A DNA stretch of 64,000 nt from positions 124,001 to 188,000 of the forward strand of contig NZ_JAHBZK010000006.1 of the NCBI RefSeq assembly GCF_019635465.1, in the 5' to 3' direction. Position numbers and translations under genes: made by a program. The notes beneath the pieces were generated by a model. That model had not been told where the DNA came from, searched no databases, and saw only the letters and a list, made by a program, of their open reading frames with translations. This stretch comes from Hydrogenophaga sp. (GTDB taxonomy: Bacteria > Pseudomonadota > Gammaproteobacteria > Burkholderiales > Burkholderiaceae_C). The first letter of the stretch is position 1. Each line of letters starts with the position of its first letter. This document shows positions 13,984 to 50,271 of the stretch, one piece after another.

Positions 13984-13989
13984 ATTGTG
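13984..13989 (-). promoter_or_regulatory. -10 hexamer of the fliL operon
   Basis: CACAAT on the minus strand, 51 bp upstream of the fliL ATG. Its centre is 43.5 bp from the centre of the palindrome at 14016-14044, the same spacing as at fliE, fliF, flgA, flgB and flgF. Confidence 0.55.
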
Positions 13990-14015
13990 GGAGTCACCCC
14001 CCACCGCCGTTCGCT

Positions 14016-14044
14016 GGAAAAGCGCGGGAAAACGCGCTTATTCC
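14016..14044. promoter_or_regulatory. FlhD4C2-like operator upstream of fliL
   Basis: Inverted repeat GGAAAAGCGC-N8-GCGCTTATTCC. Both half-sites fit GRAAWAGSSG. It lies between the fliK stop and fliL. A longer perfect 10-bp palindrome (AGCGCGGGAA/TTCCCGCGCT, 14021-14050) overlaps it. Confidence 0.6.
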
Positions 14045-14060
14045 CGCGCTCGGAACGCGC

Positions 14061-15410
14061 TCAGATGAAGAGGTCCAGCCCGCCGCTGGTGGCCGATCGG
14101 GCGGCCGGTGCCCGGGGCGCCGGGGTGGCGGCCGGGCTTTCGTCGGCGCCGCGGCGGATGGTCGGTGCCGGTTGGGCGACAGACGCGTCGCGCTGGCGTT
14201 CCTGTTGCTGCTGGGCACCCACCGACACCTCGCCGAGTTGCAGGCCGCCTTGCTGCAGCCGCTCGCCGAGCGCGGCCTGCGCCTGCTCGCGCAGGGCGTC
14301 GCGGGTGCCGGCGTCGTCGGTGCGGATGTCCAGGCGCAGTTCGTCGCCGCGCAGGGCGAGCTGGATGTCGATGGCCTGGGCGGCTTCCTCGCCCACGCGC
14401 AGGCTGGCGTGGCGCAGGCCGTGTGCGCCGGCCCAGTGCTGCACGTCCACGCTGTCGGGGTCGTTGACGTTGGCGTTGTAGGGGTCGTTGGACGGGTTGC
14501 TGTCGTCGTGCGCGCCAGCGCCGTGCTGTGACCCGCCGCTGTCGCTGCCCATGCCGCCGGACAGATCGCCAGAGAGGTCGCCCGACAGGCCGCCCGATGA
14601 CGTGCCATCACTGCTGGCGCTGACCGCGCCGAGGGCGCTGTGCCGGGCTTCGCCCGGTCGCAGCTCCTCGCCTTGTCGCACCTCGTCGGCCATGGCCTGG
14701 GCACGGGCCGCCATGGCGGCGCCATGCGGGCTGGTGGTGGTCTGCGCGAAGCGGGCGTCCATGGTCACGGTGCTGCGCACCGAGGTCGCCACCGGGGCGG
14801 CGTCACTGCTTGGGGCACCGCGCGTCCAGCGCATGGCGGGCAGGTCGTTGGCGCCGGCAACGCCGCGTGGGGTCGCGGAGGCGGCGGCACCGGGGGCGGC
14901 GGTCTGGGCCGCGCGGGTGGCCGCGACCTGCCAGCTCACGCTGTTGCCGCGCACCGGCGTGGCCGGGGTGCTGTTGGCCAGGGCATCGGGGGCCTTGGCG
15001 GTGGGGGTGTCCGTTCGCGGTTCGTCGTGCGCCAGGTCCAGCGCCTGGGCGTCGGTGGCGGGCACGTCCTTGGCGTCTTTGCCTGCCTTGGTAACAGTTG
15101 TGGGGTCGCTCGGCGTCGCGTCCGATGTGGGCTTGGTCAGACCGGGGGCCTGCCACATCAACAGGGCGGCCAGTGGGTTGTCGGTCGGGGCGCTGGCGTC
15201 GTCGTCCTGGGCATCGGTGCTGGCGAGCACGGTGTCACCGGGCTCCGAGCCGTCCACCGGCGCGGCATCGGCCGCCAGGGCCAGCAGGGTCGAGAACAGG
15301 TCGGCCGGCCCCTGCCGCTTCTCGTGCGGGTTGGCCTGGGCAGGGCGGGCCTGGCCGGCGGCGTTGGCGTGGCTGGGCGCGCTGGAGGAGGGGGTGGCGG
15401 ACGTGGTCAT
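14061..15410 (-). CDS. fliK: Flagellar hook-length control protein FliK
   Basis: 449 aa. Low-complexity Ala/Thr/Asp-rich N-terminal two thirds with a short Gly-Ser-Asp repeat (SGGLSGDLSGDLSGG), then the C-terminal Flg_hook domain (about residues 330-405: HASLRVGEEAAQAIDIQLALRG, with GDELRLDIRTDDAGTRDAL) that switches export specificity. The protein ends GGLDLFI. The ATG overlaps the fliJ stop (ATGA). Last gene of the fliFGHIJK operon. Confidence 0.93.
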   Translation of the reverse strand: MTTSATPSSSAPSHANAAGQARPAQANPHEKRQGPADLFSTLLALAADAAPVDGSEPGDTVLASTDAQDDDASAPTDNPLAALLMWQAPGLTKPTSDATPSDPTTVTKAGKDAKDVPATDAQALDLAHDEPRTDTPTAKAPDALANSTPATPVRGNSVSWQVAATRAAQTAAPGAAASATPRGVAGANDLPAMRWTRGAPSSDAAPVATSVRSTVTMDARFAQTTTSPHGAAMAARAQAMADEVRQGEELRPGEARHSALGAVSASSDGTSSGGLSGDLSGDLSGGMGSDSGGSQHGAGAHDDSNPSNDPYNANVNDPDSVDVQHWAGAHGLRHASLRVGEEAAQAIDIQLALRGDELRLDIRTDDAGTRDALREQAQAALGERLQQGGLQLGEVSVGAQQQQERQRDASVAQPAPTIRRGADESPAATPAPRAPAARSATSGGLDLFI

Positions 15411-15883
15411 GAGGACATCGGTTGAAAACTGCTGTCGTTGTCGAGACGGCGGCGGTGGGCGTTCTGGGCCATCTCGTCGGTGTGCTTCTGGTCGCGCCGT
15501 TGCAGCTGCTGCAGCCAGGTCTGCATCTGGCGCGCGGCGACCTTGCGCAGGCTGGCCAGTTCGCGCTCGGCTTCGATCACGATGCTTTGTGCCTGTTCGA
15601 CCTGCTGCACGCGCTCACTCAGCACGTTGTGCTGGAAGGCGATGGCGTGGTCGAGCTTGGCCATGAACTGGCGGTGGTGCATGAGCAGCGCCACGTCGAC
15701 ACCGCTGGCACCACGCTCGCTCCAGCGGCGCTCGGCCTCGCCCACATAGCCGGTGAGCTGGTCCATCTGGGCCTGCGCCTGCTGGTGCTCGCCGCGCAGG
15801 CGCGCGAGCTGACCCAGGGCTTCGTCGCGCCGGCGCTCGGCCAGCTCGATGACTTTGTTCAGTTGCTGGGCCGGCGCGCTCAT
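15407..15883 (-). CDS. fliJ: Flagellar export chaperone FliJ
   Basis: 158 aa, almost entirely coiled coil, the form expected of the FliJ stalk inside the FliI ring. It overlaps both fliI (15880-15883) and fliK (15407-15410) by ATGA, implying translational coupling. Confidence 0.93.
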
Positions 15884-17385
15884 GCATTGCCCTCATAGGG
15901 GTTGTGCTGCGTGCGGCCGCCGCGCGTGGACGACTGCGGCTGGGCGTGGCCGCTGCCGGGCTGGCCGGGCTTGTCCTCCTTGAGGGCGGTCTGCAGCGCA
16001 CGCAGGCTGTCGCTCAATGGGGCAGCTTCGTTCATGTCCTGCATCAGGAAACGTTGCAAGGCGGGATAGAGCACGATGGCGCGATCGGTCTCCGGGTCGC
16101 TGCCGGCCACGTAGGCACCGAGCTGGATCAGGTCGCGGCTCTTCTGGTAGCGCGAGTAGTTCGCGCGGAACTTGCGGGCCAGCTCCAGGTGACGGGGGCC
16201 GGCGACGTTGTGCATCACCCGCGAGGCCGAAGCCTCGACGTCGATGGCGGGGTAGTGACCCGATTCGGCCAGCGCCCGCGACAGCACGATGTGGCCGTCC
16301 AGGATGGCGCGCGCGGCGTCGGCGATCGGGTCCTGCTGGTCGTCGCCTTCGCTGAGCACGGTGTAGAACGCGGTGATCGAGCCACGGCCGTTGAGCCCGT
16401 TGCCGCTGCGCTCGACCAGCTGCGGCAGCTTGGCGAAACACGATGGCGGGTAGCCTTTGGTGGCGGGCGGCTCGCCAATGGCCAGGGCGATTTCACGCTG
16501 CGCCATGGCGTAGCGGGTGAGCGAATCCATCAGCAGCAGCACGTGCAGGCCTTCGTCGCGAAAGCTCTCGGCCACGGCGGTGGCGTAGCTGGCGCCCTGC
16601 ATGCGCACCAGCGGCGGCGCGTCGGCGGGGGCGGCCACCACCACCGAGCGGCGCCGGCCTTCCTCGCCCAGGATGTCTTCGATGAATTCCTTGACCTCGC
16701 GGCCGCGTTCACCGATCAGGCCGACCACGATGACATCGGCCTTGGTGTAGCGCGCCATCATGCCCAGCAGCACGCTCTTGCCCACGCCGGAGCCGGCGAA
16801 CAGGCCCAGCCGTTGACCGCGGCCGACGGTGAGCAAAGCGTTGATCGAGCGCACACCGGTGTCCAGCGATTCGCGCACCGGGTCGCGGTCCATGGCGTTG
16901 AGCGGCGCGCGCTCCAGCGGCGCCACGCGCACATTGCGCAGCGGTCCCTGGTGGTCCAGCGGCTGGCCGTGGGCGTCGACCACGCGGCCGAGCAGCCCGC
17001 GCCCCATGGGCAGGCTGAGCACGCTGCGGTCGGATGGCGAGGGCGGCGGGTTGGCGTGGCCCACGCGCGGCACGGTGCGGTAGGGCGGCAGCGGCGTCAC
17101 GCTGGCGCCGCTGGCCAGGCCATGCACGTCGCCGGCCGGCATGAGAAAGGCGCGGTCCTTGGAAAAGCCCACCACCTCGGCCAGCACCGGCGCCTTGTGG
17201 CCGTTGTCGATCAGGCATTGCGAGCCCACCGGCACACGCAGGCCCACGGCCTCGAGCACCAGGCCGGCGAGTTTGGTCAGTGTGCCGCGCACCTCCAGCG
17301 GCGTGGCGACCTTGGCGCTGGTGCGCAGGTCGTCCATGAAATGGCCCCAGCGGCTGGGGGTGTCGTCGAAGGTGCTGTCGGGCAT
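15880..17385 (-). CDS. fliI: Flagellum-specific ATPase FliI
   Basis: 501 aa from the ATG at 17385. The open frame goes further upstream, but this start gives the normal FliI N-terminus. Walker A GSGVGKS (residues 198-204), the signature [19 protein letters not shown], Walker [12 protein letters not shown]. FliI powers chaperone release and export together with FliH and FliJ. The start is 47 bp after fliH. Confidence 0.97.
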
Positions 17386-17432
17386 GTCCGTGGGGCGTTT
17401 GGCGTTGGGCGTTGTGCGTAAGTCGTCCGAGA

Positions 17433-18131
17433 TCAAACCTCGGCGTCGGCGGGGTTGAAGGGCGTGTTCAGGCCCAGGTTGCCGATGGCGCGCAGCCAGC
17501 GTTTCTCGACCGTGGCGTCGACCGAGTTGGTGCGCGCCTCGACCAGGCAACCGCCCGGGGTGATCGTCGGGTCGGCCTCGAATTCCGGTGGGTTGTCGCC
17601 CAGGGTCTCGAGCAGGGCGCCCTTCATCAACGCCAGATCGGCCGGGTGCATGCGCACGGTGGCGGGCGCACCGTCGTCGATCAGCTGGCCCAGCGCCTCG
17701 TGCACCACGGGCAGCAGGTGCATGGGTTGTTGCGAAAGTTCCTGGCGCAGCACCTGGCGCGCCAGGTCGCAGGCCAGCTCAAGGATGTGGCGCGAGATTT
17801 CCTGCTCGTTGTGCTTGAGGTGATCGCGGGTGTTGCGCAGCAGCTGCGCCATGCGCACCGCGGTCTCTTCGGCGGTGCGGCGCATGGTGGCCTCCATGGC
17901 GTCGCGCACCGATTGGGCGCCGGCGTCGTGGCCGTGCTGGAAGCCTTCGTTGTAGGCACTCTGGCGCACGTCGTCCATGTGCGCGGCCGCCGCGGAGAGC
18001 GTCTCTTCGGTCGGCAGACTGGGCGTGTTGTCGCTGCCGTCGACGGCGGCGAACTGCCAGGCCGCCACGCCGTCGATCTCCTCGCGCGGGATGAAGCGCG
18101 AGTACGGGTCGTTCTTGGGTCGCTGACTCAT
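17433..18131 (-). CDS. fliH: Flagellar assembly protein FliH
   Basis: 232 aa from the ATG at 18131, chosen over one at 18149 because GGGAG lies about 10 nt upstream. It begins [18 protein letters not shown]; the Trp/aromatic-rich N-terminus docks on FliN and FlhA. A central coiled coil follows and a C-terminal V/A-ATPase stator-like domain ([26 protein letters not shown]). FliH regulates FliI. Confidence 0.94.
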
Positions 18132-18183
18132 TGAGGGATCTCCCGCCAATCACCTGAGCAGATGGAGGGCATGGGTCGAAGCG

Positions 18184-18262
18184 AGGGACACCGCGGAACC
18201 GGCTTTGCCGGGCCGCTGGTGTCGCCCCCTTGAGGGGGTCGCGCGAAGCGCGGCGGGGGTGC
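18184..18262 (+). repeat. Intergenic structured repeat, copy 2
   Basis: Between fliG and fliH. Outer stem GACACC/GGTGTC, inner stem CCGGC-ttt-GCCGG (CTGGC/GCCAG in copy 1, a compensatory change), then CCCCCTTGAGGGGG and CGCGCGAAGCGCG. Confidence 0.85.
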
Positions 18263-18267
18263 GTTCT

Positions 18268-19272: not shown

Positions 19273-19293
19273 GGTCGTTCTCTCCCTGGGGCG

Positions 19294-20976: not shown

Positions 20977-21019
20977 GGTGGTTTGGTCAGAGGGCACGGA
21001 GGGCCCCCGAATGCGAACG

Positions 21020-21025
21020 AGTATC
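21020..21025 (-). promoter_or_regulatory. -10 hexamer of the fliF operon
   Basis: GATACT on the minus strand, 43 bp upstream of the fliF ATG and 43.5 bp (centre to centre) from the palindrome at 21052-21080. Confidence 0.5.
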
Positions 21026-21051
21026 CCGGCCCCCCCGAACGTTCATTCCCG

Positions 21052-21080
21052 AAAAAAGGCGCTGTTATGGCCCTTTATTT
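21052..21080. promoter_or_regulatory. FlhD4C2-like operator between fliF and fliE
   Basis: Half-sites AAAAAAGGCG (21052-21061) and, on the other strand, AAATAAAGGG (21071-21080), with a 9-bp centre. The site sits symmetrically between two divergent -10 hexamers, each 43.5 bp from its centre. Confidence 0.6.
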
Positions 21081-21106
21081 CCCGCCCGGGCTGCCGAGGG
21101 GGTCCC

Positions 21107-21112
21107 TACGAT
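21107..21112 (+). promoter_or_regulatory. -10 hexamer of fliE
   Basis: TACGAT, 38 bp upstream of the fliE ATG and 43.5 bp from the centre of the FlhDC-like palindrome at 21052-21080. Confidence 0.5.
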
Positions 21113-21471: not shown

Positions 21472-21587
21472 TGGCCGCGCTCATCCGGTCGCCAGAACAG
21501 GCCGTGGTTTCACACGCTTTTCGCGGTTTGCAGGGGTGCACGCGTTCCTAGCATGTGCTTCATCCGTCAACCAGAAGGAGGCAAAAG

Positions 21588-21941
21588 ATGGATCTGGAAA
21601 GTTCGGTCGCCAAGCATGGCGAGTGGAAGATGAAGTTGCGTGGTGCGATCAATCGCCAGGAGACGCTGGATGCCACCTCGATTGGTAGCGATCACCGGTG
21701 CGAGCTGGGTCAGTGGTTGCATGGAGACGCCAGGAAACAGTACGGCTCGCTCAAGAGCTATGCCACCTGTGTGGCCCGCCACGCCGAATTTCACGCCGAA
21801 GCCGGCAAGGTCGCCAAGGCCATCAACGCCAAACGCTTTGGAGAGGCCGAGACGATGATTGGCGCGGGCTCGGCCTACGCCCAGGCGTCCAGCGCCGCCA
21901 GCGTGGCGATCCTTGCGCTCAAGAAAGAAGCGCGCATGTGA
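21588..21941 (+). CDS. Free-standing CZB (chemoreceptor zinc-binding) domain protein
   Basis: 117 aa consisting only of a CZB domain. Likely zinc ligands: His10 (AKHGEWK), Cys39 in the signature CELGQWLHGDARKQYG, and His residues of CVARHAEFH. Such domains sense zinc (and in some cases hypochlorite) on the C-termini of chemoreceptors and diguanylate cyclases; here there is no attached output domain. A perfect AGAAGGAGG lies 8 nt before the ATG at 21588. Its partner must be another protein, plausibly a chemoreceptor. Confidence 0.8.
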   Translation: MDLESSVAKHGEWKMKLRGAINRQETLDATSIGSDHRCELGQWLHGDARKQYGSLKSYATCVARHAEFHAEAGKVAKAINAKRFGEAETMIGAGSAYAQASSAASVAILALKKEARM

Positions 21942-28160: not shown

Positions 28161-28952
28161 TCAGCGCAGCAGGGCCAGCACGTTCTGGGGAACCTGGTTG
28201 GCCTGGGCCACCATGGCGGTACCCGCTTGCGTGAGCACCTGGGTACGCGACAGGTTGGAGGTTTCCTGGGCGAAGTCGGCGTCCATGATCCGGCCACGGG
28301 CAGCGGCCTGGTTCTCGGAAGCGATACGCAGGTTGCTCACCACCGATTCAAAACGGTTCTGCACGGCACCCAGCGTGGCGCGCGAGGTGTTGGCCGTGTC
28401 CAGCGCGGTGTCGATGGCGCCCAGGGCGGTCGTTGCGTTGGCAGCGGTCGTCACGTCACCAGCGATGGTCACAGCGGCGGTCGAGGCCACGGCGATGGTG
28501 TCGCCGCTGTTGGCGCCAACCTGGAAGGTGTACGAAGCGCCGAACACGTTGGCACCGTTGAAGCGGGTGCTGGAGCCCAGGCGGGTCACTTCAGCGGTCA
28601 GTTGCTGGAATTCGGCGTTGAGGTTGGCGCGGTCGCCGGTGCCGTTGGTGCCGTTGGCTGCCTGCACGGCCAGGTCACGCATACGCAGCAGGGCGTCGCT
28701 GACCTTGCCCAGGGCGCCGTCGGCGGTCTGTGCGAAGGAGATGGCGTCGTTGGCGTTGCGGATGGCCACGTTCATGCCACGCTCTTGAGCGCTCATGCGG
28801 GTGGCGATCGACAGGCCAGCGGCGTCGTCTTTCGAGCTGTTCACACGCAGGCCGGAAGACAGGCGCTGCATCGAGGTGGCCAGCGAGCCCTGGTTGGTGG
28901 CCAGGTTGCGCTGAGCGTTCAGGGACATCACGTTGGTGTTGATGGCGGTCAT
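28161..28952 (-). CDS. fliC: Flagellin FliC
   Basis: 263 aa, short for a flagellin. N-terminal D0/D1 (INTNVMSLNAQRNLATNQGSLATSMQRLSSGLRVNSSKDDAAGLSIATRM) and C-terminal D1/D0 (VVSNLRIASENQAAARGRIMDADFAQETSNL) are complete; only a minimal variable region (about residues 130-190) remains. Transcribed from a sigma-28 promoter at 29139-29165 with a leader of about 180 nt. AGGAG precedes the ATG. Confidence 0.98.
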   Translation of the reverse strand: MTAINTNVMSLNAQRNLATNQGSLATSMQRLSSGLRVNSSKDDAAGLSIATRMSAQERGMNVAIRNANDAISFAQTADGALGKVSDALLRMRDLAVQAANGTNGTGDRANLNAEFQQLTAEVTRLGSSTRFNGANVFGASYTFQVGANSGDTIAVASTAAVTIAGDVTTAANATTALGAIDTALDTANTSRATLGAVQNRFESVVSNLRIASENQAAARGRIMDADFAQETSNLSRTQVLTQAGTAMVAQANQVPQNVLALLR

Positions 28953-29138: not shown

Positions 29139-29165
29139 ATTTCGGAGGGGTGTGGAAATTCTTTA
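29139..29165 (-). promoter_or_regulatory. Sigma-28 promoter of fliC
   Basis: Minus strand: TAAAGAAT, 11 nt, TCCGAAAT, compared with TAAAGTTT-N11-GCCGATAA. The -35 matches at 6/8 with the invariant TAAAG, and the spacing is exact. Lies about 190 bp before the fliC ATG. Confidence 0.75.
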
Positions 29166-29213
29166 GCCCTTCGCACAACCCAAATGCTTGATAAGGCCTG
29201 TGCGCACCCCCCA

Positions 29214-29248
29214 GTTCCGGTGCCCCTGCTGTATCGGCAGGGCGGAAC
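29214..29248. promoter_or_regulatory. Inverted repeat upstream of flhDC
   Basis: Arms GTTCCG-(gtgc)-CCCTGC and GCAGGGCGGAAC pair over 12 bp with a 4-nt bulge, around TGTATCG. It lies about 230 bp before flhD. It may bind a regulator of the master operon or form a leader RNA structure. Confidence 0.4.
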
Positions 29249-29479
29249 CTTCCCTACGAACCGTTGATCGCGCCAGCGCGCCCGTACGCGCGTAGGAAGG
29301 CATTTATGAGAACCAAAGATGTAGGCGCTGCGCTGACAAACGCTACCGGTTCTCCCGACACGTTGCACAGCGTTTTACCGATTCAAGTTTCTTCACCGCT
29401 CGACACAATTCCTCACATCGGGTCTCGCAAAGCCTTCTGGCAGCAAAACCCCCCACCTGAGGATGTGAAGGAGCAAGTG

Positions 29480-29821
29480 ATGGACAGCGAACAACTTCTG
29501 GCCGAGATCCGCGAAGCCAACCTGACGTACCTGATGCTGGCGCAGAACCTGATCCGCAAGGATCGCGCCGAAGCCCTGTTCCGACTGGGCCTGACCGAAG
29601 AAGCCGCCGACCTGCTCGGCATGCTGTCGACGGCTCAGCTGCTCAAGATCGCCTCCAGCAACATGCTGCTGTGCCGCTTCCGTGTGGACGACGACCTGGT
29701 GTGGAACCTGTTGACCAGCCACAACGTGAAGAAGGTCGACAACAGCACCACGACCCAGCTGCACGCCAGCATCCTCATGGCCGGCCGTTACGCCGAGTCC
29801 ATGGCCGCTACCGCCCACTGA
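29480..29821 (+). CDS. flhD: Flagellar master regulator subunit FlhD
   Basis: 113 aa from the ATG at 29480, with AAGGAG about 7 nt upstream. MDSEQLLAEIREANLTYLMLAQNLIRKDRAEALFRLGL matches FlhD throughout. FlhD with FlhC forms the D4C2 activator of class II flagellar operons. The frame continues upstream without a stop to an ATG at 29306 that has its own AGGAAGG, so a 171-aa form is possible but its extra 58 residues are unlike FlhD. Confidence 0.96.
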   Translation: MDSEQLLAEIREANLTYLMLAQNLIRKDRAEALFRLGLTEEAADLLGMLSTAQLLKIASSNMLLCRFRVDDDLVWNLLTSHNVKKVDNSTTTQLHASILMAGRYAESMAATAH

Positions 29822-29851: not shown

Positions 29852-30391
29852 ATGGCCGCAGGCAAAAGCATCCTCAACGAATCGCGTGACATCGAGCGCG
29901 CGGTGGCCTTGATCCAGCTGGGCGCACGCCTGCAGGTGCTGGAGTACGAGACCAGCCTTTCCTATGAGCGCCTGCTTCGCCTGTACAAGGAAGTTGCCGG
30001 CAAGAGCCCGTCGAAAGGCCAGTTGCCCTTCTCGACCGACTGGTTCCTGACCTGGCAGCCCAACATCCACGCCTCGCTGTTCCTCAACATCCACGAGTAC
30101 CTGTCCAAATCGACCGAACTCGAAGAAATCGACGCCGTCATCAAGGCCTTCCGCCTGTACAGCGAACAGATGACGGCCAGCGCCATCGAGCCCCTGCTGT
30201 CCATCACCCGCGCCTGGCGCCTGGTGAAGTTCGTGGACAACGGCATGCTCACGCTGACCAAATGCTCTTGCTGCGGTGGCCAGTTCGTCACCGAGCCCTA
30301 TGAAAACGCCCGCCACTTCGTCTGTGGCCTGTGCCAGCCGCCGGCACGCGCCGGCAAGGGCTCCAGCGCCAACTCGCTGCGCCTGCACTGA
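29852..30391 (+). CDS. flhC: Flagellar master regulator subunit FlhC
   Basis: 179 aa. Zinc site from Cys138/Cys141 (KCSCCGG) and Cys158/Cys161 (CGLC). The DNA-binding subunit of FlhD4C2. 30 bp after flhD and followed by a rho-independent terminator. Confidence 0.97.
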   Translation: MAAGKSILNESRDIERAVALIQLGARLQVLEYETSLSYERLLRLYKEVAGKSPSKGQLPFSTDWFLTWQPNIHASLFLNIHEYLSKSTELEEIDAVIKAFRLYSEQMTASAIEPLLSITRAWRLVKFVDNGMLTLTKCSCCGGQFVTEPYENARHFVCGLCQPPARAGKGSSANSLRLH

Positions 30392-30418
30392 CAGCAATCA
30401 CCCTCGCCTCAAAGCGTG

Positions 30419-30446
30419 AAAAGGGCCCCTACAGGGGGCCTTTTTT
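30419..30446 (+). terminator. Rho-independent terminator of flhDC
   Basis: AAGGGCCCCT-ACA-GGGGGCCTT hairpin followed by TTTTTT at 30441-30446, 28 bp after the flhC stop. It separates flhDC from motA, so motA needs its own promoter. Confidence 0.85.
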
Positions 30447-30480
30447 CGTTTCTTGGCGGTCTTCATCCCACCTAGAGTTG

Positions 30481-30488
30481 GCCGATAA
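30481..30488 (+). promoter_or_regulatory. Sigma-28 -10 element upstream of motA
   Basis: A perfect GCCGATAA, 60 bp upstream of motA and just after the flhDC terminator. The -35 at N11 is TTCATCCC, far from TAAAGTTT, so activity is uncertain. Confidence 0.5.
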
Positions 30489-30548: not shown

Positions 30549-31412
30549 ATGTTCGTCATCATCGGTTTCCTGGTATCGATGGCCTGCATCTTCGGGGTGT
30601 TCATCGCCCACGGGGGCAACATCAGCGTGGTGTTGCACGCGCTGCCGTTCGAGATCACCACCATCCTCGGCGCTGCCCTGGGTGCCTTCATCATCAACAA
30701 CCAGATGAAGGTGGTGAAGGCCTCCTTCAAAGGCATGGCCGGCTGCTTCAAGGGCAGCCATTTCACCAAGGATCGCTACATGCAGATCCTGGCACTCCTG
30801 TACGACCTGCTGCAAAAGGCCCGCAAGGAAGGCCTGATGGCGATCGAACAGGATGTCGAAAACCCCGACCAATCGCCGGTCTTCAAGAAGTACCCGACGA
30901 TCGCTGGCGATCACCACGTTGTCGAGTTCATCACCGACTACCTGCGCATGATGGTCTCGGGCAACCTCAACGCCCACGAGATCGAGTCCCTGATGGACAA
31001 CGAAATCGAGACCCACCACCAGGAAGCGCACGCGCCGGTGGCGGCCATCGCCCGCCTGGCCGGTGGCCTGCCGGCCTTCGGCATCGTGGCCGCCGTGCTG
31101 GGTGTGGTCAACACCATGGGTTCGGTCGGCCAACCACCAGCGGTGCTGGGCGGCATGATCGGCTCGGCCCTGGTCGGTACCTTCCTTGGCATCTTGCTGG
31201 CCTATGGTGTGTTCGAACCCATCGGCGGCCTGATGGACCAGAAGGTCGAAGAGGCGGGCAAAGAACTCATCTGCATCAAGACCACCTTGCTGGCCAGCAT
31301 GCAGGGTTACGCACCGGCCACTGCGGTCGAGTTCGGCCGCAAGGTGCTGTTCAGCGACGTGCGCCCGTCGTTCTCCGAGCTGGAGAACCACGTGAAGGGC
31401 AAGAAAGCATGA
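30549..31412 (+). CDS. motA: Flagellar stator protein MotA
   Basis: 287 aa. Four membrane helices: two near the N-terminus (about 2-20 and 30-50) and two after residue 168 (GLPAFGIVAAVLGVVNTM; LVGTFLGILLAYGVFEPI). The large cytoplasmic loop contains charged residues that act on FliG. Forms a proton channel with MotB. Separated from motB by a repeat copy. Confidence 0.97.
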   Translation: MFVIIGFLVSMACIFGVFIAHGGNISVVLHALPFEITTILGAALGAFIINNQMKVVKASFKGMAGCFKGSHFTKDRYMQILALLYDLLQKARKEGLMAIEQDVENPDQSPVFKKYPTIAGDHHVVEFITDYLRMMVSGNLNAHEIESLMDNEIETHHQEAHAPVAAIARLAGGLPAFGIVAAVLGVVNTMGSVGQPPAVLGGMIGSALVGTFLGILLAYGVFEPIGGLMDQKVEEAGKELICIKTTLLASMQGYAPATAVEFGRKVLFSDVRPSFSELENHVKGKKA

Positions 31413-33705: not shown

Positions 33706-33718
33706 GGAATGTGCTGGC

Positions 33719-33748
33719 GGAATAGGCCGGTTTCCCCCCGCCTTATCG
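33719..33748. promoter_or_regulatory. FlhD4C2-like operator upstream of flhB
   Basis: Half-sites GGAATAGGCC (33719-33728) and, on the other strand, CGATAAGGCG (33739-33748), with a 10-bp centre. Both carry the A..A core positions and AAGG/TAGG block shared by the other four sites. Confidence 0.6.
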
Positions 33749-33773
33749 CCCTTTAGTTTTTCCGCTCGCTTTC

Positions 33774-33779
33774 CACAAT
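33774..33779 (+). promoter_or_regulatory. -10 hexamer of the flhBAF operon
   Basis: CACAAT within TTTCCACAATC, 26 bp before the flhB ATG and 43 bp from the centre of the palindrome at 33719-33748. The same CCACAATC block occurs before flgF and fliL. Confidence 0.55.
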
Positions 33780-38647: not shown

Positions 38648-39392
38648 GTTCGGCCTTGACCAGGCCGCCGGCCTGCGCCTGGACATGCAGGCGCGCGACG
38701 GCAGCCCGGCCCTCATGCCCCTGGCCAGCCCGGCCCAGCCGTCGCACGGCTTTGAGTGGCTGTGCCGGCTGGCGATGGACCTGGCCGACGCCGGTCAGCG
38801 CGTCGTCGTCATCGACGGCTGCGCCACCGAACGCGGCGAGCGCGGTGGCCTGTGCCACGCGCTGGCCGACACCAGCGAAACGCAACTGGGCGCCGCGGCA
38901 CAGCGCGGCGAGTGGCAGGTGATGCCCGGCGCGCGCGGCCTGCAGACCCTGGTGGGCACCGCCGCCGCCGGTGGCGCCGACACGGCGGTCTCGCGCCTGT
39001 TTGCACCGTTCGCGCACGGCGCGCTGGTGTTGCTGTACGCGCCGGCGCAAGCCCTGGCCTCGCTCCTGTCGGGCATCAGCGCGCGCGTGCTGGTGCCGGT
39101 GATCGACCAGCCGCAGGCCAGCATCGATGCCTATGGCGCCCTGAAATGGCTGCACGGCGCGGGCCTGTGCCCGGTGCTGGCGCCGCTGTCGGCACCGCAG
39201 CAGATTCTCTCCAACGTGGTCGACACCGCGCAGCGTCACCTGGGCCTTCGCGTGCCCGTGTGGGCGCAGCCGGCCTGGTCGCAGCGCGTGCCCGATGGCG
39301 CGCTGGTGCGCGCCGACACGCCCCCGTTCTCACCTCACCGTTCACCCGCCCGCGGCGTTTACGCCGGGGCCGCTCACCCCCTCTGGAGCTGA
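38640..39392 (+). CDS. flhG: FlhG/FleN-like protein without a P-loop
   Basis: 250 aa in the exact position of flhG, between flhF and fliA. The N-terminus has DQAAGLR (residues 7-13), the motif by which FlhG stimulates FlhF GTPase. In FlhG/MinD the next block is the deviant Walker A (KGGVGKT); here the aligned stretch is ASPAQPSHGFEW (29-40), with no lysine or GKT, although the following helix and strand (LAMDLADAGQRVVVIDG) still align. The MinD A' aspartate is also not followed by the usual sequence. ATP binding is therefore probably lost. Confidence 0.75.
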   Translation: MFEFGLDQAAGLRLDMQARDGSPALMPLASPAQPSHGFEWLCRLAMDLADAGQRVVVIDGCATERGERGGLCHALADTSETQLGAAAQRGEWQVMPGARGLQTLVGTAAAGGADTAVSRLFAPFAHGALVLLYAPAQALASLLSGISARVLVPVIDQPQASIDAYGALKWLHGAGLCPVLAPLSAPQQILSNVVDTAQRHLGLRVPVWAQPAWSQRVPDGALVRADTPPFSPHRSPARGVYAGAAHPLWS

Positions 39393-40111: not shown

Positions 40112-40115
40112 CCCC

Positions 40116-43536: not shown

Positions 43537-43565
43537 GCCCGCCCGGGGCCAACCCTGCACGCCCT

Positions 43566-43985: not shown

Positions 43986-44129
43986 GCGCTGGGGTCGGCA
44001 TTCCCGTTCTCGAAGCGATCAGTCGACAGTTGGGGTGCGCGACCTTTGTCCTATGTCATGGGCCTGGCGTGACGCGTGGTCATGATGGGTGCAACCCGTC
44101 TGTTCAACCACCCGCCCATGGAGACCACG

Positions 44130-44480: not shown

Positions 44481-44532
44481 ATCGCCAGACCGCTCGGGCC
44501 CGGCGCTGCCCGAATGTGGGCTTGGGGCTGCC

Positions 44533-44877: not shown

Positions 44878-44891
44878 GGTGGTGTGCGCGT

Positions 44892-45209: not shown

Positions 45210-45221
45210 GTCACGCTCCGC

Positions 45222-45237
45222 GCCCTGTTTTCAGGGC
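45222..45237 (-). promoter_or_regulatory. Hairpin in the flgM leader
   Basis: GCCCTG-AAAA-CAGGGC: a perfect 6-bp stem with a 4-nt loop that ends about 12 nt before the flgM ATG, next to the Shine-Dalgarno sequence. It could limit or time FlgM synthesis. Confidence 0.55.
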
Positions 45238-45249
45238 AATGTCGTTGTC

Positions 45250-45276
45250 GTATCGGTCTTGATCTCCAGAACTTTA
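45250..45276 (-). promoter_or_regulatory. Sigma-28 promoter of flgM
   Basis: Minus strand: TAAAGTTC, 11 nt, ACCGATAC, compared with TAAAGTTT-N11-GCCGATAA: 7/8 and 6/8 matches with exact spacing. The best sigma-28 promoter in the window, about 40 bp before flgM. Confidence 0.85.
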
Positions 45277-45322
45277 GGGTTTTAGTGCCTTTTTTCTACC
45301 GCTCGTCGCTCAAGGATGCTCT

Positions 45323-46048
45323 TCACAGCGGCAGTTCGACGGTCTGGTCGGCCCGCACGGTGCCGCTGACCACCTTGCCGTTGGGCAGGCGCACCCGGGC
45401 GGCTTGACCCACGTGGCCGGCGCTCAGCGCCTGGCCCACCACCGATACGGCAAAGCCGCGGCCGTTGGCGCTCACTTTCACTGGCGTTCCCGCATCAAAG
45501 GCCTGCGGGGCGCGCACCATGTTCTCGCGGATGACCTGGCCCGGGGTCAGTGCATAGGCGGCCTGCTGACCCACCCAGCGCTCGGGCGCGGCCAGCACCA
45601 TGGACGGGTGGGCCGCCCAATCCACTTCGGCGCGATCGGCCATGGCTTGAGTCAGGGTTTCACCGGCCGGCACGGGCGCCTTGAGCACCCAGGCCGGCCC
45701 GAAGGCCTGCACCGTCACCGGGATGTAGACGCTCCAGCGTGTGGGGCCGTCGACGCAGCGCAGACCCACACGGCTGCGGCCCCAGAGGCGGCCACCGGGC
45801 GGCAGAAAGGGTTCGATGCCATTGCAAGGGGCCAGCCGCAGGCGGCTGTCGAGCGAGCCCATCACCACCTCGGCGCGCAGCGGCATGCCGGCCTGCTCGG
45901 CCAGGGCCTGTTCGACCGTGGGTTGCAGAAAGTCGCGCGCGAGCTTTTCCAGGCCGTCGGCATCGCTGGCGCGCGCGCTGGCGGCGGCGGCCAGCAGCAC
46001 CAGGGCAAAGCTCACGGTCAGCAGCAGGCGAAGGGCAGGGCGGTTCAT
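45323..46048 (-). CDS. flgA: Flagellar P-ring assembly chaperone FlgA
   Basis: 241 aa from the ATG at 46048. Signal peptide (LLLTVSFALVLLAAAASARA), a domain with disulfide-forming Cys (LAPCNG, LRCVDG), and the C-terminal SAF-type domain (VIRENMVRAPQAFDAGTPVKVSANGRGFAVSVVGQAL). Helps FlgI assemble the P ring. Divergent from flgB. Confidence 0.94.
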   Translation of the reverse strand: MNRPALRLLLTVSFALVLLAAAASARASDADGLEKLARDFLQPTVEQALAEQAGMPLRAEVVMGSLDSRLRLAPCNGIEPFLPPGGRLWGRSRVGLRCVDGPTRWSVYIPVTVQAFGPAWVLKAPVPAGETLTQAMADRAEVDWAAHPSMVLAAPERWVGQQAAYALTPGQVIRENMVRAPQAFDAGTPVKVSANGRGFAVSVVGQALSAGHVGQAARVRLPNGKVVSGTVRADQTVELPL

Positions 46049-46087
46049 GGGGCGCACTCCGGCGTGGGTGGACGAATTCAGGCAATC

Positions 46088-46093
46088 ACTCTA
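46088..46093 (-). promoter_or_regulatory. -10 hexamer of flgA
   Basis: TAGAGT on the minus strand, 39 bp upstream of the flgA ATG and 43.5 bp from the centre of the palindrome at 46120-46148. Confidence 0.5.
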
Positions 46094-46119
46094 GGGGTCG
46101 GGCGTCCAGCCAAAGCCGC

Positions 46120-46148
46120 GAAATACCGGGTCCGCATGCCGCTGTTTC
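46120..46148. promoter_or_regulatory. FlhD4C2-like operator between flgA and flgB
   Basis: Half-sites GAAATACCGG (46120-46129) and, on the other strand, GAAACAGCGG (46139-46148), with a 9-bp centre. The symmetry extends outward: CAAAGCCG on the left and CGGCTTTTG on the right. It sits symmetrically between the two divergent -10 hexamers. Confidence 0.65.
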
Positions 46149-46160
46149 CGGCTTTTGCCG

Positions 46161-46180
46161 CCCTCAAGTCTTTTGACAAT
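46161..46180 (+). promoter_or_regulatory. Promoter of flgBCDE
   Basis: A 20-bp block beginning CCCTCAAG and ending with the -10 GACAAT (46175-46180); 16 of 20 positions are identical to the block upstream of flgF at 50252-50271. The -10 centre is 43.5 bp from the FlhDC-like palindrome. Confidence 0.6.
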
Positions 46181-46245
46181 GCCCGCAAGTCCCGGTCCCG
46201 AGCGCTTGTTCGGACCGGCCCCACCCACCCACCTGCGAGGTGACC

Positions 46246-46647
46246 ATGCTTGACCAGATGACCGACCGGCTGGATTTCCATGCCAAGGCGTTGGTGCTGC
46301 GCTCGCAGCGCCAGCAGGTGATCGCCAGCAACATCGCCAACGCCGACACCCCGGGCTATGTGGCGCGCGACTTCGACTTCGCCAGCGCACTCAAGAACGC
46401 CACCGGCACGGGCACCGGCAATGCCGTCACCACCGACCCACGCCACTTCAGCAGCGTCGGCGCACCTCCCGGTGGCGACCCCAAGCTGGGCTACGCGGTG
46501 CAGACCCAGCCCGCGCAGGACGGCAACTCGGTCGACCTCGACCGCGAGCGTGCTTCGTTCGTGGACAACACCATCCGCTACGAATCCACGCTGCGTTTCA
46601 TCAATGGTCACGTCAAGACCATGCTGAGCGCGATCACGGGTCAGTGA
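46246..46647 (+). CDS. flgB: Flagellar rod protein FlgB
   Basis: 133 aa from the ATG at 46246. Rod-type N-terminal motif LVLRSQRQQVIASNIANADTPGYVARDFDF. GAGG precedes the ATG; an in-frame GTG is at 46240. First gene of flgBCDE. Confidence 0.97.
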   Translation: MLDQMTDRLDFHAKALVLRSQRQQVIASNIANADTPGYVARDFDFASALKNATGTGTGNAVTTDPRHFSSVGAPPGGDPKLGYAVQTQPAQDGNSVDLDRERASFVDNTIRYESTLRFINGHVKTMLSAITGQ

Positions 46648-46667
46648 TCGCCTGAAAGGACTCTGCC

Positions 46668-47072
46668 ATGTCGATGTTCCAGATCTTCAATGTCAGCGGC
46701 AGCGCGATCAGCGCGCAGCAACAGCGCCTGAACGTGGTGGCCTCCAACCTGGCCAACGCCGATGCGGTGGCCGGCCCCGACGGCCAGGCCTACAAGGCGC
46801 GCCACATCCACTTCCAGACCCAGAGCATGGGCGGCCCCGGCAGCGCCGGCGTGAAGGTGCAGACCATCACCGAAAGCGATGCCCCGGGCCGGCGCGTGTT
46901 CGAGCCCCAGCACCCCAACGCCGACGTCGACGGCTATGTGACGCACTCCAACGTGAACCCGGTGGAGGAGATGGTCAACATGATTTCGGCCTCGCGCTCG
47001 TACCAGAACAACGTCGAGGTGATGAACACCGCCAAGACGCTGATGCTCAAGACGCTGCAGATGGGTCAGTAA
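46668..47072 (+). CDS. flgC: Flagellar rod protein FlgC
   Basis: 134 aa. N-terminal motif SAISAQQQRLNVVASNLANADA and C-terminal SNVNPVEEMVNMISASRSYQNNVEVMNTAK are the conserved helices of axial proteins. 20 bp after flgB, AAAGGA before the ATG. Confidence 0.97.
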   Translation: MSMFQIFNVSGSAISAQQQRLNVVASNLANADAVAGPDGQAYKARHIHFQTQSMGGPGSAGVKVQTITESDAPGRRVFEPQHPNADVDGYVTHSNVNPVEEMVNMISASRSYQNNVEVMNTAKTLMLKTLQMGQ

Positions 47073-47112
47073 TCGCCGTCGCCCACGCAGACCCCGACAA
47101 GGACGCACGCAC

Positions 47113-47778
47113 ATGATGTTCTCCAACCCCCTGGACCTGTCCAACCTCGGCACCACCGTGGGCAGCTCCACTGCGCAGCAGGCCACCACGGCGACCAACG
47201 CCGAGGCCACGCAGGACCGGTTCCTCAAGTTGCTGGTGGCCCAGCTCAACAACCAGGACCCGATGAATCCGATGGACAACGCGCAGATGACGACGCAGAT
47301 GACGCAGATCAACACGGTCGCCGGCATCGAGTCGCTCAACGCCACGCTCAAGGGCATGGCCGCGCAGTTCACCGCCATGCAGACGCTGCAGGGCGTGTCG
47401 CTCATTGGCCGCGAGGCGCTGGTGGCGGGCAACAACTTCGGCTTCGATGGCGCCTACGGCAAGGCCGCGTTCCGCATCGACGAGTCGGCCGCGAGCGTGC
47501 AGGTCGACGTGGTCGGCACCAACGGCGAGATCCTCGACACCCTGGACTTCGGCGCCCTGACCGCTGGCCAGCATTCGTTCAACTGGGACGGCACCGGCAT
47601 CGACCCCACCCAGGTGGCTGGCTACCGCGTGCGCGCATCCAACGGTGGCTCGCCCGTCGAAGCCACCACCTTTGGCCGCTACACCGTCACCTCGGTCGGC
47701 AGCAGCGACGGCGTCACCACCCTGAAGCTGCAGGACGGACGCTCGCTGAGCTACGACCAGATCGACACCTTCATGTAA
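47113..47778 (+). CDS. flgD: Flagellar hook cap protein FlgD
   Basis: 221 aa. N-terminal export segment QDRFLKLLVAQLNNQDPMNPMDNAQMTTQMTQIN, then the tudor-like and FnIII-like domains (GQHSFNWDGTGIDPTQVAGYRVRASN). Scaffold for hook assembly, lost on completion. Confidence 0.96.
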   Translation: MMFSNPLDLSNLGTTVGSSTAQQATTATNAEATQDRFLKLLVAQLNNQDPMNPMDNAQMTTQMTQINTVAGIESLNATLKGMAAQFTAMQTLQGVSLIGREALVAGNNFGFDGAYGKAAFRIDESAASVQVDVVGTNGEILDTLDFGALTAGQHSFNWDGTGIDPTQVAGYRVRASNGGSPVEATTFGRYTVTSVGSSDGVTTLKLQDGRSLSYDQIDTFM

Positions 47779-47808
47779 CCCACCGATTTCGCCCAGCAAG
47801 GAAACACC

Positions 47809-49017
47809 ATGGCATTCCAGCAAGGACTCTCCGGCCTCAACAGCGCGAGCAAGAACCTCGACGTGATCGGTCACAACATCGCCAACGGCAACACGGTGGG
47901 CATGAAGTCATCGCGCACCGAATTTGCCGAGGTCTACGCCAGCTCGGTCAACGCCGCTGGCGGCGTCAACCAGGGCATCGGCGTGTCGGTGGCAGCGGTG
48001 ACGCAGGCCTTCACCCAGGGCAACATCACCATCACCGGCAGCGACCTGGACATCGCCATCAACGGCGCCGGTTTCTTCGAGCTGACCAACCCGGACGGCA
48101 CGCTGTCGTACTCGCGCGCCGGCATGTTCAAGCTCGACCGCGAAGGCAACATCGTCAACAACGACGGCAGCCAGCTCATGGGCTACCCCACCGACGCCGA
48201 CGGCAACCGCCTGAGCTACAACACCGTGGCCCTGACGCTGCCCACCGCCAGCCCGATCCCGGCGCAGCAGACCAGCACCATCACGGCCGAGTTCAACCTC
48301 GACGCGCGCGCGCCGATCTGGAACTCGGTCACGCCCAACACCCCGCTGACGACCTACGGCACCTCGCTGGTGGCCTTTGACCAGCAGGGCATCGAGGTGC
48401 CGGTGACGATGGCTTTCCGCAAGGTGGCCAACAACAGCTGGGAGGTCTACACCGGCGTCAACGGCGCCGACCCGGCCCTGTCCACGCCGTTCACCGTCAA
48501 CTTCCTGCCCGATGGCTCGCTCGACACCGCGACCACCACCATTCCGCCGCTGGCACTGAGCTCAGTCAACGGGGCCTTCAACGCCACCATCGACTTCAGC
48601 AACATCTCGCAGTTCGGCACCGCCTTTGGCGTGACCATGCTCGACCAGGACGGCTATCGCCCGGGCCAGTTCGTGGGTCTGAAGATCGGTGAAGACGGCG
48701 TGGTGACCGGCCAGTACTCCAACGGCGAGACGCGCGCCGCCGGCCAGGTGGCCCTGGTGAACTTCCGCAACGCACAGGGCCTGCAACCCATGGGCGGTGG
48801 CAGCTGGTCGGCCACCTTCGCCTCCGGCGACCCGGTGCGTGGCGAACCCGGCACCGGCAACTACGGCTCGCTGCGTGCCGGCGCGCTGGAAGACTCCAAC
48901 GTCGACATCACGGCCGAGCTGGTCAACATGATGACCGCGCAGCGCGCCTACCAGGCCAACGCACAGACCATCAAGACGCAGGACCAGGTGCTGAGCACGC
49001 TGCTCAACATGCGCTGA
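47809..49017 (+). CDS. flgE: Flagellar hook protein FlgE
   Basis: 402 aa. N-terminal GLSGLNSASKNLDVIGHNIANGNTVGMK, central D1/D2 domains and C-terminal LEDSNVDITAELVNMMTAQRAYQANAQTIKTQDQVL. AAGGAA precedes the ATG. Followed by an unrelated gene rather than flgF. Confidence 0.97.
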   Translation: MAFQQGLSGLNSASKNLDVIGHNIANGNTVGMKSSRTEFAEVYASSVNAAGGVNQGIGVSVAAVTQAFTQGNITITGSDLDIAINGAGFFELTNPDGTLSYSRAGMFKLDREGNIVNNDGSQLMGYPTDADGNRLSYNTVALTLPTASPIPAQQTSTITAEFNLDARAPIWNSVTPNTPLTTYGTSLVAFDQQGIEVPVTMAFRKVANNSWEVYTGVNGADPALSTPFTVNFLPDGSLDTATTTIPPLALSSVNGAFNATIDFSNISQFGTAFGVTMLDQDGYRPGQFVGLKIGEDGVVTGQYSNGETRAAGQVALVNFRNAQGLQPMGGGSWSATFASGDPVRGEPGTGNYGSLRAGALEDSNVDITAELVNMMTAQRAYQANAQTIKTQDQVLSTLLNMR

Positions 49018-49123
49018 GGATTTCATGGGGCGTGAGCTGAAATAGCGCCGAGGGGGTAGTGCGGGCGAGGGCTGGGCTACCTAGCATCTCGCGGGTTTTC
49101 AACCCGCCCCGAGTGCTGCGCCC

Positions 49124-50167
49124 ATGTCATCTGCCAACGATTCCTGGTCCTTTCACAACCTGTCCGACGACCTTGCTCCTGCGCGCGCGGCGGGAGCACG
49201 CGTGTTCGCCACCCGCGATCGCTCGGACCACATCCACTCCATCACGGTCTGCTTCGCCGGCACCAAACCCTCGCTGGACGCAGTGGATCGGGTGCTTCGC
49301 GAATGTGCCGCGCACGTGGCGGCGCAAGACAGCTCCTTTGACGTGTTCATCCGCGCAGAATGGGTGCCGCATGCCGATGCGCACCGCCGAGAAATCGAGC
49401 TCATCTATCCGTACGGCCAGGACTTCTTCCTGTGCTTCGACGCCAGGCTGCGTCAGATCGGCGTGCGTCAAAGGGGAGGCAAGCGCTTCGTGAAACCCTG
49501 GCCAGTCGACGACGTCGCCGCGGTGTGCCGCAAGGCCTACGCAGCGCACGACCCCTTGCCGCTGGAAGACTACCCCGACACCGACGATGACGACGACAGT
49601 TCGATGGGGGACTTGCGCTCGGAGGTCGTGCACTGGATCTGGTACGGCTACCACGCACTGTCCGACATCGACGCGGTGATCGTGGCGCGCGCCGAGGACG
49701 ATGAAGACATCGACCTCGACGAGATGCGTGCCTTCGCGGCGACCATTCTTGCCAGGAAGCGCGCGGCCGAAGCTACCTGGGCTGCCGAGACGGACAACGA
49801 TCGCCTGGCCGACGCGTTCTCAGACCTCATTCACGACGGCATCATGGCCGTGCAGTGGGCGGGCGACACCCTCGATGAAGGCTTCGACGTGGTCAACAGC
49901 CGCATTGAGGCAGAGGACCCCCGGGGCGAGCAGTACACCGGGGCCTGCTTCTTCCACAGCCAGGACATGGACCGCGCGCTCAACGAAGAAGGTCTGATGG
50001 TGGCTTTTGGCCACCTCCACAGCGATGAACCCGCTGACTACGTCGCCATCGGCCAGCGGGTCTGCGAGGCGCTCAGGCGGCATGGCCTGCGCCCGGAGTG
50101 GAACGGCACGGACCGCCAGCGCATCGGACTGCCCGGGTTTCGCTGGCAGCGCCGCACCCCGGACTGA
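49124..50167 (+). CDS. Protein of unknown function with DUF6891-like C-terminus
   Basis: 347 aa, acidic, no signal peptide or membrane helix. The C-terminal third (ACFFHSQDMDRALNEEGLMVAFGHL, then IGQRVCEALRRHGLRPEWNGTDRQRIGLPGFRWQRR) resembles DUF6891. The middle has an acidic run (DTDDDDDSS). It has no counterpart in ordinary flagellar operons, yet sits between flgE and flgF in the same orientation. I do not know its function. Confidence 0.7.
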   Translation: MSSANDSWSFHNLSDDLAPARAAGARVFATRDRSDHIHSITVCFAGTKPSLDAVDRVLRECAAHVAAQDSSFDVFIRAEWVPHADAHRREIELIYPYGQDFFLCFDARLRQIGVRQRGGKRFVKPWPVDDVAAVCRKAYAAHDPLPLEDYPDTDDDDDSSMGDLRSEVVHWIWYGYHALSDIDAVIVARAEDDEDIDLDEMRAFAATILARKRAAEATWAAETDNDRLADAFSDLIHDGIMAVQWAGDTLDEGFDVVNSRIEAEDPRGEQYTGACFFHSQDMDRALNEEGLMVAFGHLHSDEPADYVAIGQRVCEALRRHGLRPEWNGTDRQRIGLPGFRWQRRTPD

Positions 50168-50210
50168 CCCTGCCCCACCCCCCGCCACCTTGGCCGGGGT
50201 TTGAAGCGAG

Positions 50211-50239
50211 GAAATGCGCGGCAGCACCCCTGCTGTTCG
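50211..50239. promoter_or_regulatory. FlhD4C2-like operator upstream of flgF
   Basis: Half-sites GAAATGCGCG (50211-50220) and, on the other strand, CGAACAGCAG (50230-50239), with a 9-bp centre. Weaker than the other sites (one core A is G), but found by predicting its position from the 43.5-bp spacing to the -10. Confidence 0.5.
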
Positions 50240-50251
50240 GCGCATTGGCCA

Positions 50252-50271
50252 CCCTCAAGAATTTCCACAAT
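50252..50271 (+). promoter_or_regulatory. Promoter of flgFGHIJKL
   Basis: CCCTCAAGAATTTCCACAAT, with -10 CACAAT at 50266-50271. 16 of 20 positions match the flgB promoter block. 61 bp before the flgF start. Confidence 0.6.

Follow-up and report, generated by a model that had tools for sequence, protein, structure and literature searches.

The window, that is the whole stretch of DNA that was analysed, comprises 64,000 nucleotides of a Hydrogenophaga genome (G000; 3.9 Mb in 29 contigs), namely positions 124001-188000 of contig C26, and contains a flagellar gene cluster in which a set of palindromes resembling the operators of the flagellar regulator FlhD4C2 stands in front of the promoters. 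Among the matches listed, the closest named relative by FlhA is Hydrogenophaga sp. Bin_25_3 (86% identity), with subsequent matches at 79% or less. NCBIfam profiles assign FliG, FliF, FliE, FlhB, FlhA, FlgA, FlgB and FlgF in the window, together with FliL, whose score of 126.1 bits lies slightly below the curated cut-off of 131. Pfam assigns FlhD, FlhC, a receiver domain, CheZ, MotB and DUF6891, and further profile assignments are an SRP54-type GTPase, a sigma-70-family sigma factor, FlgM, FliD, flagellin and MotA. The two genes for the regulator itself are flhD, listed as an open reading frame (ORF) at 29264..29821 (+; PF05247), and flhC at 29852..30391 (+; PF05280); the FlhD domain occupies residues 73-177, so that the true start of flhD is probably later than that of the listed ORF. 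The FlhC of the window matches the solved FlhC structures 2AVU (1.7e-60) and 8J56 (2.1e-59), the latter of which presumably comes from work on FlhDC of Cupriavidus necator and its promoter DNA.

Five palindromes, centred at 14030.0, 21066.0, 33733.5, 46134.0 and 50225.0, had been proposed from inspection of the letters alone (hereafter the sequence-only reading) as FlhD4C2-like operators of seven flagellar promoters, and all five are present where that reading placed them. In a wider 42-bp model, in which no strand is assigned to the boxes, the box before fliL spans 14010..14050 (centre 14030.0), with its -10 hexamer CACAAT at 13984..13989 (-) and 43.5 bp from the centre. The box between fliF and fliE (21046..21087, centre 21066.5 in the 42-bp model) is flanked by GATACT of fliF at 21020..21025 (-) and TACGAT of fliE at 21107..21112 (+), each 43.5 bp from the palindrome centre of the sequence-only reading, and the box before flhB (33713..33754, centre 33733.5) is followed at 43.0 bp by CACAAT at 33774..33779 (+). 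Between flgA and flgB, the box at 46113..46154 (centre 46133.5) serves TAGAGT of flgA at 46088..46093 (-) and GACAAT of flgB at 46175..46180 (+), while the box before flgF (50204..50245, centre 50224.5) is followed by CACAAT at 50266..50271 (+); these three hexamers again lie 43.5 bp from the originally proposed centres. All seven hexamers thus fall within the proposed 43-43.5 bp, and the equal distance on either side of the two divergent sites is kept in relatives. Both the flgB and the flgF promoter contain a CTCAAG element, at 46163..46168 (+) and 50254..50259 (+), respectively. The proposed half-site GRAAWAGSSG stands as the inner part of the longer box, but is loose, with 2, 4, 3, 2 and 5 mismatches per 20 positions across the five sites; by this half-site alone the flgF site (5/20) has dozens of look-alikes elsewhere in the window, and it is distinctive only under the 42-bp model. 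A generic sigma70 -10 matrix favoured other hexamers at flhB and flgF, 23 and 35 bp out, and the phased hexamers were taken for these two promoters because relatives keep that position.

The motif can be recovered from relatives without recourse to the window. In a family sample of 120 genomes, 88 of which have FlgB, the best 45 by FlgB were used and 30 loci each were fetched for flgB, fliF, flhB, flgF and fliL. A palindromic motif was sought without supervision, by randomly started expectation-maximisation (EM) on 145 upstream regions of these relatives, G000 being left out. The best of 12 runs returned a..gc..GAAaAgggg, whose spacer is mostly 10-11 bp, and in all five G000 regions the proposed palindrome is its top match. 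When one gene was left out at a time, using 230-bp regions and more restarts, without G000 and G114 and with flgF regions out of all training, the box was recovered in four of five folds, and the loci exceeding the 99% level of shuffled sequences numbered 26/30 for fliF, 27/30 for flhB, 16/30 for fliL and 1/30 for flgF, G000 being counted in each set of 30 and the single flgF locus being G000 itself. In the four successful folds, with the half-site width fixed at 16, 0.88-0.91 of the weight falls on a gap of 10. The matrix of the flgF fold, trained on the relatives' flgB, fliF, flhB and fliL regions and on neither G000 nor G114, was used for later scans. Compared with the bases conserved in the FlhDC half-site (A1, A2, G4 and AAATA), the matrix of the unsupervised run on 145 regions has A1 0.54, G4 0.55, A9 0.79, A10 0.63 and A12 0.69, but A2 at only 0.33 and G (0.76) at position 8. 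The FlhDC box of E. coli is described as AAYGSSNNAAATAGCG-N10-12 followed by its inverse, that is as two inverted 16-bp half-sites in a palindrome of 42-44 bp (PMC9962212), and because the motif of the relatives has the same architecture it is identified with the FlhDC box. The palindromes are thus very probably FlhD4C2 operators, as the sequence-only reading predicted, and of the same type as in E. coli, with flhDC encoded in the same window and with binding and transcription starts at the phased hexamers to be expected. A search of open-licence papers on FlhDC boxes and on FlhDC in Betaproteobacteria returned no binding-site study for Comamonadaceae.

The distance between box and -10 hexamer is also a property of the group. 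Among the relatives' sites, 103 of 116 have an operator score of at least 12 (13 were dropped), and in 87 of these 103 the best -10 lies at 42.5-45 bp, where about 6 would be expected if distances were uniform over the search range of 22-75 bp from the centre. The flgA side of its divergent site has the best -10 at 43-44 bp in 27/28 cases and the fliE side at 42-45 bp in 29/29, while no -10 distance is favoured on the silent upstream side of flhB (26) or of fliL (20). In E. coli K-12 each of the five regions read has its best-scoring matrix box at gap 10 (site scores 11.5-17.7), and hexamers starting 19 bases past the box, identified by eye, are legible for six of seven promoters, namely GATAAT (fliA, fliL), AATAAT (fliF), CATCAT (flhB), TACAAT (flgA) and TAGGCT (fliE), flgB being without a clear one. 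A wider survey of 80 named FlhA loci provided 72 usable flhB upstream regions (six loci lacked FlhB and two were too short), of which 39 reach a joint score of at least 15; these include Comamonadaceae, Burkholderia, Cupriavidus, Janthinobacterium, Nitrosomonas, Thiobacillus and two Halomonadaceae loci. Three Chromatiaceae loci and one Pseudomonas locus score below 0, and of the ten survey loci that hold FlhC, seven score at least 15 and three 10.6-14.0. The outcome is the binding-site model anticipated for this group, an FlhDC site and phasing model for Comamonadaceae that was tested across genera.

Within the window, totals from the relatives' matrix plus a -10 at 42.5-44.5 bp are 32.6 for flgA/flgB, 30.3 for flgF, 29.2 for fliL, 29.1 for flhB and 22.8 for fliF/fliE, and sites outside the original list total 29.7 between flhC and motA, 24.4 between fliC and flhD, 21.5 after fliE and 20.0 within coding sequence at 4.0 kb. 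The top total in each of 20 Markov-resampled windows is 4.9-19.0. A chance origin of the sites was ruled out by the phasing counts in relatives and by the window totals against the resampled windows. The scan of the genome that the sequence-only reading had suggested was made with a promoter model, R1, of 74 positions built from 88 promoters of relatives, none from G000; among the matches listed for G000 the order is flhB (5.3e-7), a site at C24:60948 (7.8e-7), fliL (1.3e-6), flgF (5.0e-4) and fliE (1.0e-3). All seven promoters of the original list are borne out, but the list is incomplete, as motA and fliC in the window and a gene at C24:60948 encoding a receiver domain and tetratricopeptide repeats (TPR) elsewhere in the genome have to be added.

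The flgF operator differs from the others in its distribution. Conservation in relatives holds for fliF, flhB and fliL, while in the family sample the flgF operator is found in G000 only; it was added in one lineage, which is why most relatives do not have it. Lack of conserved half-sites, which the sequence-only reading took as evidence against an operator, is therefore a poor guide at flgF, where the site is real although most relatives lack it. In a genus sample of 67 genomes, 55 of which have flgF at the threshold used, seven carry the flgF operator (scores 10.8-22.6), all with 248-2038 bp between flgE and flgF, and 47 have a gap of 22-165 bp and no flgF operator (scores 5.3 or less). In the window the gap holds a gene at 49124..50167 (+) with a DUF6891 domain (PF21831, 3.6e-48). 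One DUF6891 gene is present at this position in G000, G128 and G151, two in G127 and a decayed one in G169, whereas G122 has a 259-codon ORF that looks by eye like a lipoprotein, and G124, with a 248-bp gap and the operator kept, shows no DUF6891 match and no ORF longer than 82 codons. In a FastTree phylogeny of FlgC-FlgG, six operator carriers and G155 form one clade with support 1.0 and G169 stands elsewhere; G155, inside the clade of carriers, has a gap of 28 bp, no operator and no insert. The history of the flgF operator is one of a main gain and an apparent reversal, plus a second gain or transfer. DUF6891 was also found in 12 of the 67 congeneric genomes, each of which has a copy on the flgF contig no more than about 17 kb from that gene (loci L233-L246), five at the flgE-flgF junction (one decayed) and seven 12-17 kb off, and it seems to be carried along with flagellar clusters again and again.

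The origin of the flgF promoter can be traced through the 34-base core behind the box, which has a mean identity of 0.52-0.56 to flgB cores (best 0.74-0.88) and of 0.30-0.39 to other promoter classes (best up to 0.53). The element T[CA]AAG occurs in 58/76 flgB and 7/7 flgF promoters as against 1/184 others (flgA 0/76, fliF 0/30, fliE 0/30, flhB 0/27, fliL 1/21). Because of this core identity and the element common to flgB, the flgF promoter is read as a duplicated flgB promoter, which probably restarts the split operon, with duplication as the putative mechanism. No terminator-like site was found in 48900-50400, so that read-through from flgB is possible and the restart role remains an inference.

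A box that was missing from the sequence-only reading lies before motA (30549..31412, +; Pfam MotA_N 4.9e-33), at 30411..30452 and overlapping a terminator-like hairpin after flhC. It is followed at 44 bp by the hexamer TAGAGT (30473..30478, +) and then by a sigma28-like GCCGATAA at 30481-30488. In the best 30 of 52 congeneric genomes with MotA, every motA locus has a box (score 19.0-27.4) and TAGAGT, TAAAGT or GATAGT 43-44 bp on. In G000 the box coincides with a strong terminator-like hairpin with a T run, and a single element may both end flhDC and start motA, to judge from this overlap. A second unlisted box, at 29183..29224 (centre 29203.5), lies between flhD and fliC, the flagellin gene at 28161..28952 (-; Pfam Flagellin_N 7.1e-43, Flagellin_C 1.5e-25), and is phased to fliC through the hexamer AAGAAT (29158..29163, -) at 43 bp, which lies inside CTAAAGAAT, a sequence that also fits a sigma28 -35 element before fliC. 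Of the 30 congeneric motA loci, 19 have at least 300 bases before the FlhD domain (of the remainder, ten do not reach far enough or are misplaced, and one has no FlhD), and 15 of these 19 carry the fliC-side box together with AAGAAT 43-44 bp away (totals 21.6-30.2). The box of G155 is weaker (10.8) and goes with AAGAAA, while G151, G163 and G173 have no fliC/flhD box. The fliC gene itself adjoins the box in the window and in G122, the other loci ending before it. From 10 distant loci the site would seem unconserved, but the 15 of 19 congeneric loci show the opposite.

The consensus of sigma28 promoters is TAAAGTTT-N11-GCCGATAA. At fliC, CT[CA]AAGAA followed by CCGAAA at sigma28 spacing was seen by eye in 16 rows (the 15 high-scoring loci and G155), and this promoter looks like a hybrid of FlhDC box and sigma28 elements, as far as its letters indicate. 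In flgB promoters the sigma28 -10 after T[CA]AAG reaches a mean of 3.26 of 8 matches compared with 2.94 at displaced positions (n=46), and in the flgF promoter none is visible by eye behind T[CA]AAG. The flgB and flgF promoters thus do not match the sigma28 (class III) pattern, as the -35-like T[CA]AAG is present but the -10 in flgB hardly rises above the displaced controls. The region upstream of fliC (29151-29166, -) reads CTAAAGAATTTCCACA and the flgF promoter (50254-50269, +) CTCAAGAATTTCCACA, the fliC sequence being 8 bp farther from its box.

The third addition, at C24:60948 on another contig, precedes a gene of 557 residues (Pfam Response_reg and TPR) that was absent from every training set. 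R1 matches before the receiver-TPR gene occur in at least nine of ten genomes (G000, G124, G155, G165, G128, G151, G137, G134 and G114; E up to 0.10), and in the tenth genome searched with R1, G122, there is none among the matches listed. The phased matrix match is found in all 30 loci fetched out of 53 congeneric genomes with the gene (joint scores 14.2-30.3), whereas 300 resampled control sequences reach 6.0 at most. A second receiver-TPR gene lies within the flagellar cluster about 2-2.5 kb from motA at G165:C1:185545-187149 and G136:C125:22682-24289. Other R1 matches in congeners (L416, L420, L422) stand before chemoreceptor-like genes in G122 (C36) and G124 (1.381 Mb), and one in G124 at 1.312 Mb before a small ClpS-like ORF, these names having been given by eye from translations.

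The most far-reaching reading, held slightly more likely than not, is that a slot for accessory genes at the flgE-flgF junction has been made tolerable by a duplicated and phased FlhDC promoter, the cargo changing while the promoter stays, and that motA, fliC and the receiver-TPR gene would be directly under FlhDC, with the motA and fliC boxes fused to sigma28-type elements. What can be read directly in the DNA is the motif, its phasing and conservation, the similarity of flgF and flgB cores and the association of the operator with the split. A number of results weigh against the interpretation of the sites as FlhD4C2 operators and of flgF as a duplicated promoter. At the flgF junction, G150 has a gap of 247 bp and no operator, the operator of G169 lies outside the main clade and requires a second gain or transfer, and the flgB and flgF cores of the same genome are only 0.62-0.79 identical, for which reason the copy is not recent; the flgF promoter could also have been gained for timing instead of rescue. 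R1 is weak on the window at the sites of motA (E 0.011-0.068) and fliC (E 0.008) in G000. In a first leave-one-gene-out run with 400-bp regions and 10 restarts, a clear box consensus emerged in one of five folds (flgF), those of flhB and fliL being partial or shifted, and in the flgB fold of the second run EM settled on a different motif. In real flagellar-cluster DNA, 32 of 5774 random 260-bp windows reach a total of 14 and 26 reach 17, and 44 unlisted matches totalling at least 12 occur in 472 kb outside flgA/B and flgF. Finally, according to an E. coli chromatin immunoprecipitation sequencing (ChIP-seq) study, a box alone is no guarantee of binding in vivo (PMC4183435).

A rather different order of events, tenable if somewhat short of an even chance, is that the flgF promoter was duplicated first and that the new boundary between transcription units then tolerated accessory insertions, so that no rescue was involved. 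This would agree with the varied cargo (DUF6891 once or twice, the lipoprotein-like ORF of G122, the remnant of G169) and with G124, which retains the promoter in a gap that is nearly empty of recognisable genes, but none of the 55 genomes has the operator at a short junction, and G155 lacks insert and operator alike. With regard to motA, the palindrome may serve only to terminate flhDC transcription in the rho-independent manner, and a GC-rich hairpin with A and T tracts may resemble the box by coincidence. The strong hairpin and T run in G000, inner arms that are perfect beyond what an operator requires and the weak R1 score would all fit a terminator; this nevertheless appears unlikely in view of the box and phased hexamer in 30/30 congeneric loci, of several loci (e.g. 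G114) without a long T run after the stem, and of R1 matches at motA on the correct strand in G137, G151, G122 and G128. There is an even chance that several promoters are hybrids that use FlhDC with sigma70 and also sigma28, with T[CA]AAG as the sigma28 -35. The fliC arrangement in 16 rows, where AAGAA lies 43-44 bp from the box, the CGAT seen by eye behind the motA hexamer in 28/30 rows, the near restriction of T[CA]AAG to flgB and flgF promoters and the E. coli fliL promoter, which has CTCAAG and then GCCGATAA behind its box, speak in favour, while the flgB promoters do not have the sigma28 -10. That the palindromes bind a regulator other than FlhDC is very improbable, since FlhDC is encoded in the cluster and the 42-bp architecture, the targets and the phasing equal those of E. 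coli boxes; a different regulator was rejected on these grounds.

Several weaker candidates remain. A box at 21488..21529 from the matrix scan, with TAGCAT 43 bp downstream, precedes a small CZB-domain ORF (21555-21941) that sits behind fliE in G000 alone of 28 loci; this site (21508) and the candidate at 4036 count as no more than leads. The strongest unlisted match in flagellar-cluster DNA (32.6) lies in G127 past flgA on the strand of flgA, and part of the high maxima of the random windows lie 0.9-1.5 kb upstream of flgB on that same strand and are not clean negatives; some of the unlisted matches are probably real operators. G127, G137, G160, G183 and G152 have an extra phased FlhDC-like box beyond flgA, on the flgA strand and 0.9-1.5 kb upstream of flgB (loci L276-L329), which possibly stands before flgM or before genes inserted there and could be a second type of new box at a junction. 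Isolated matches totalling 12-20 are leads, and it is conservation that carries the cases of motA, fliC and the receiver-TPR gene.

In the explanation preferred overall, which is held to be highly probable, FlhD4C2 would bind two inverted 16-bp half-sites (roughly a-a-n-g-c-n-n-G-A-A-w-A-G) with an N10 spacer and recruit RNA polymerase to a promoter that has its -10, of the type ACAAT, AATAAT, TACAGT or TACGAT, at 43-44 bp from the centre of the operator. At flgA/flgB and fliE/fliF one symmetric operator would work both ways. The regulon would also include motA, fliC and the unlinked receiver-TPR gene. In a sub-clade with accessory DNA between flgE and flgF, the flgB promoter would have been gained a second time as the flgF operator, whose likely job would be class II expression of flgF and the following genes downstream of the insert. 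It offers a natural case of an operon split alongside a second copy of its own promoter, of which intermediate and apparently reverted states exist in living relatives. The fliC and motA boxes suggest a flatter flagellar hierarchy than that of E. coli, where motA and fliC are class III genes, and flagellar control gains a concrete new candidate in the unlinked receiver-TPR gene.

This kind of FlhDC box is already well known, and what is new is the flgF promoter of the split operon, the boxes of motA and fliC and the receiver-TPR target. The E. coli box (PMC9962212, PMC4183435) shares the inverted 16-bp half-sites, the N10 spacer, the targets flgA/flgB, fliE/fliF, flhB and fliL and, as read in K-12, the -10 distance, and given this equal geometry the 43-44 bp rule may be usable to predict class II promoters widely. 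In contrast to the E. coli consensus, the commonest half-site core here is GAAwAG, with G for the first A of AAATA (in the register of the present alignment), and no box was found in the matrix scan of the window immediately before the sigma-factor gene at 38756; motA, fliC, flgF and the receiver-TPR gene are added. The start of CTCAAG precedes the -10 hexamer by 12 bases in the E. coli fliL promoter and likewise in flgB and flgF here, but while E. coli fliL combines CTCAAG with GCCGATAA behind its box, flgB and flgF of the window are without a sigma28 -10 and it is motA that has one.

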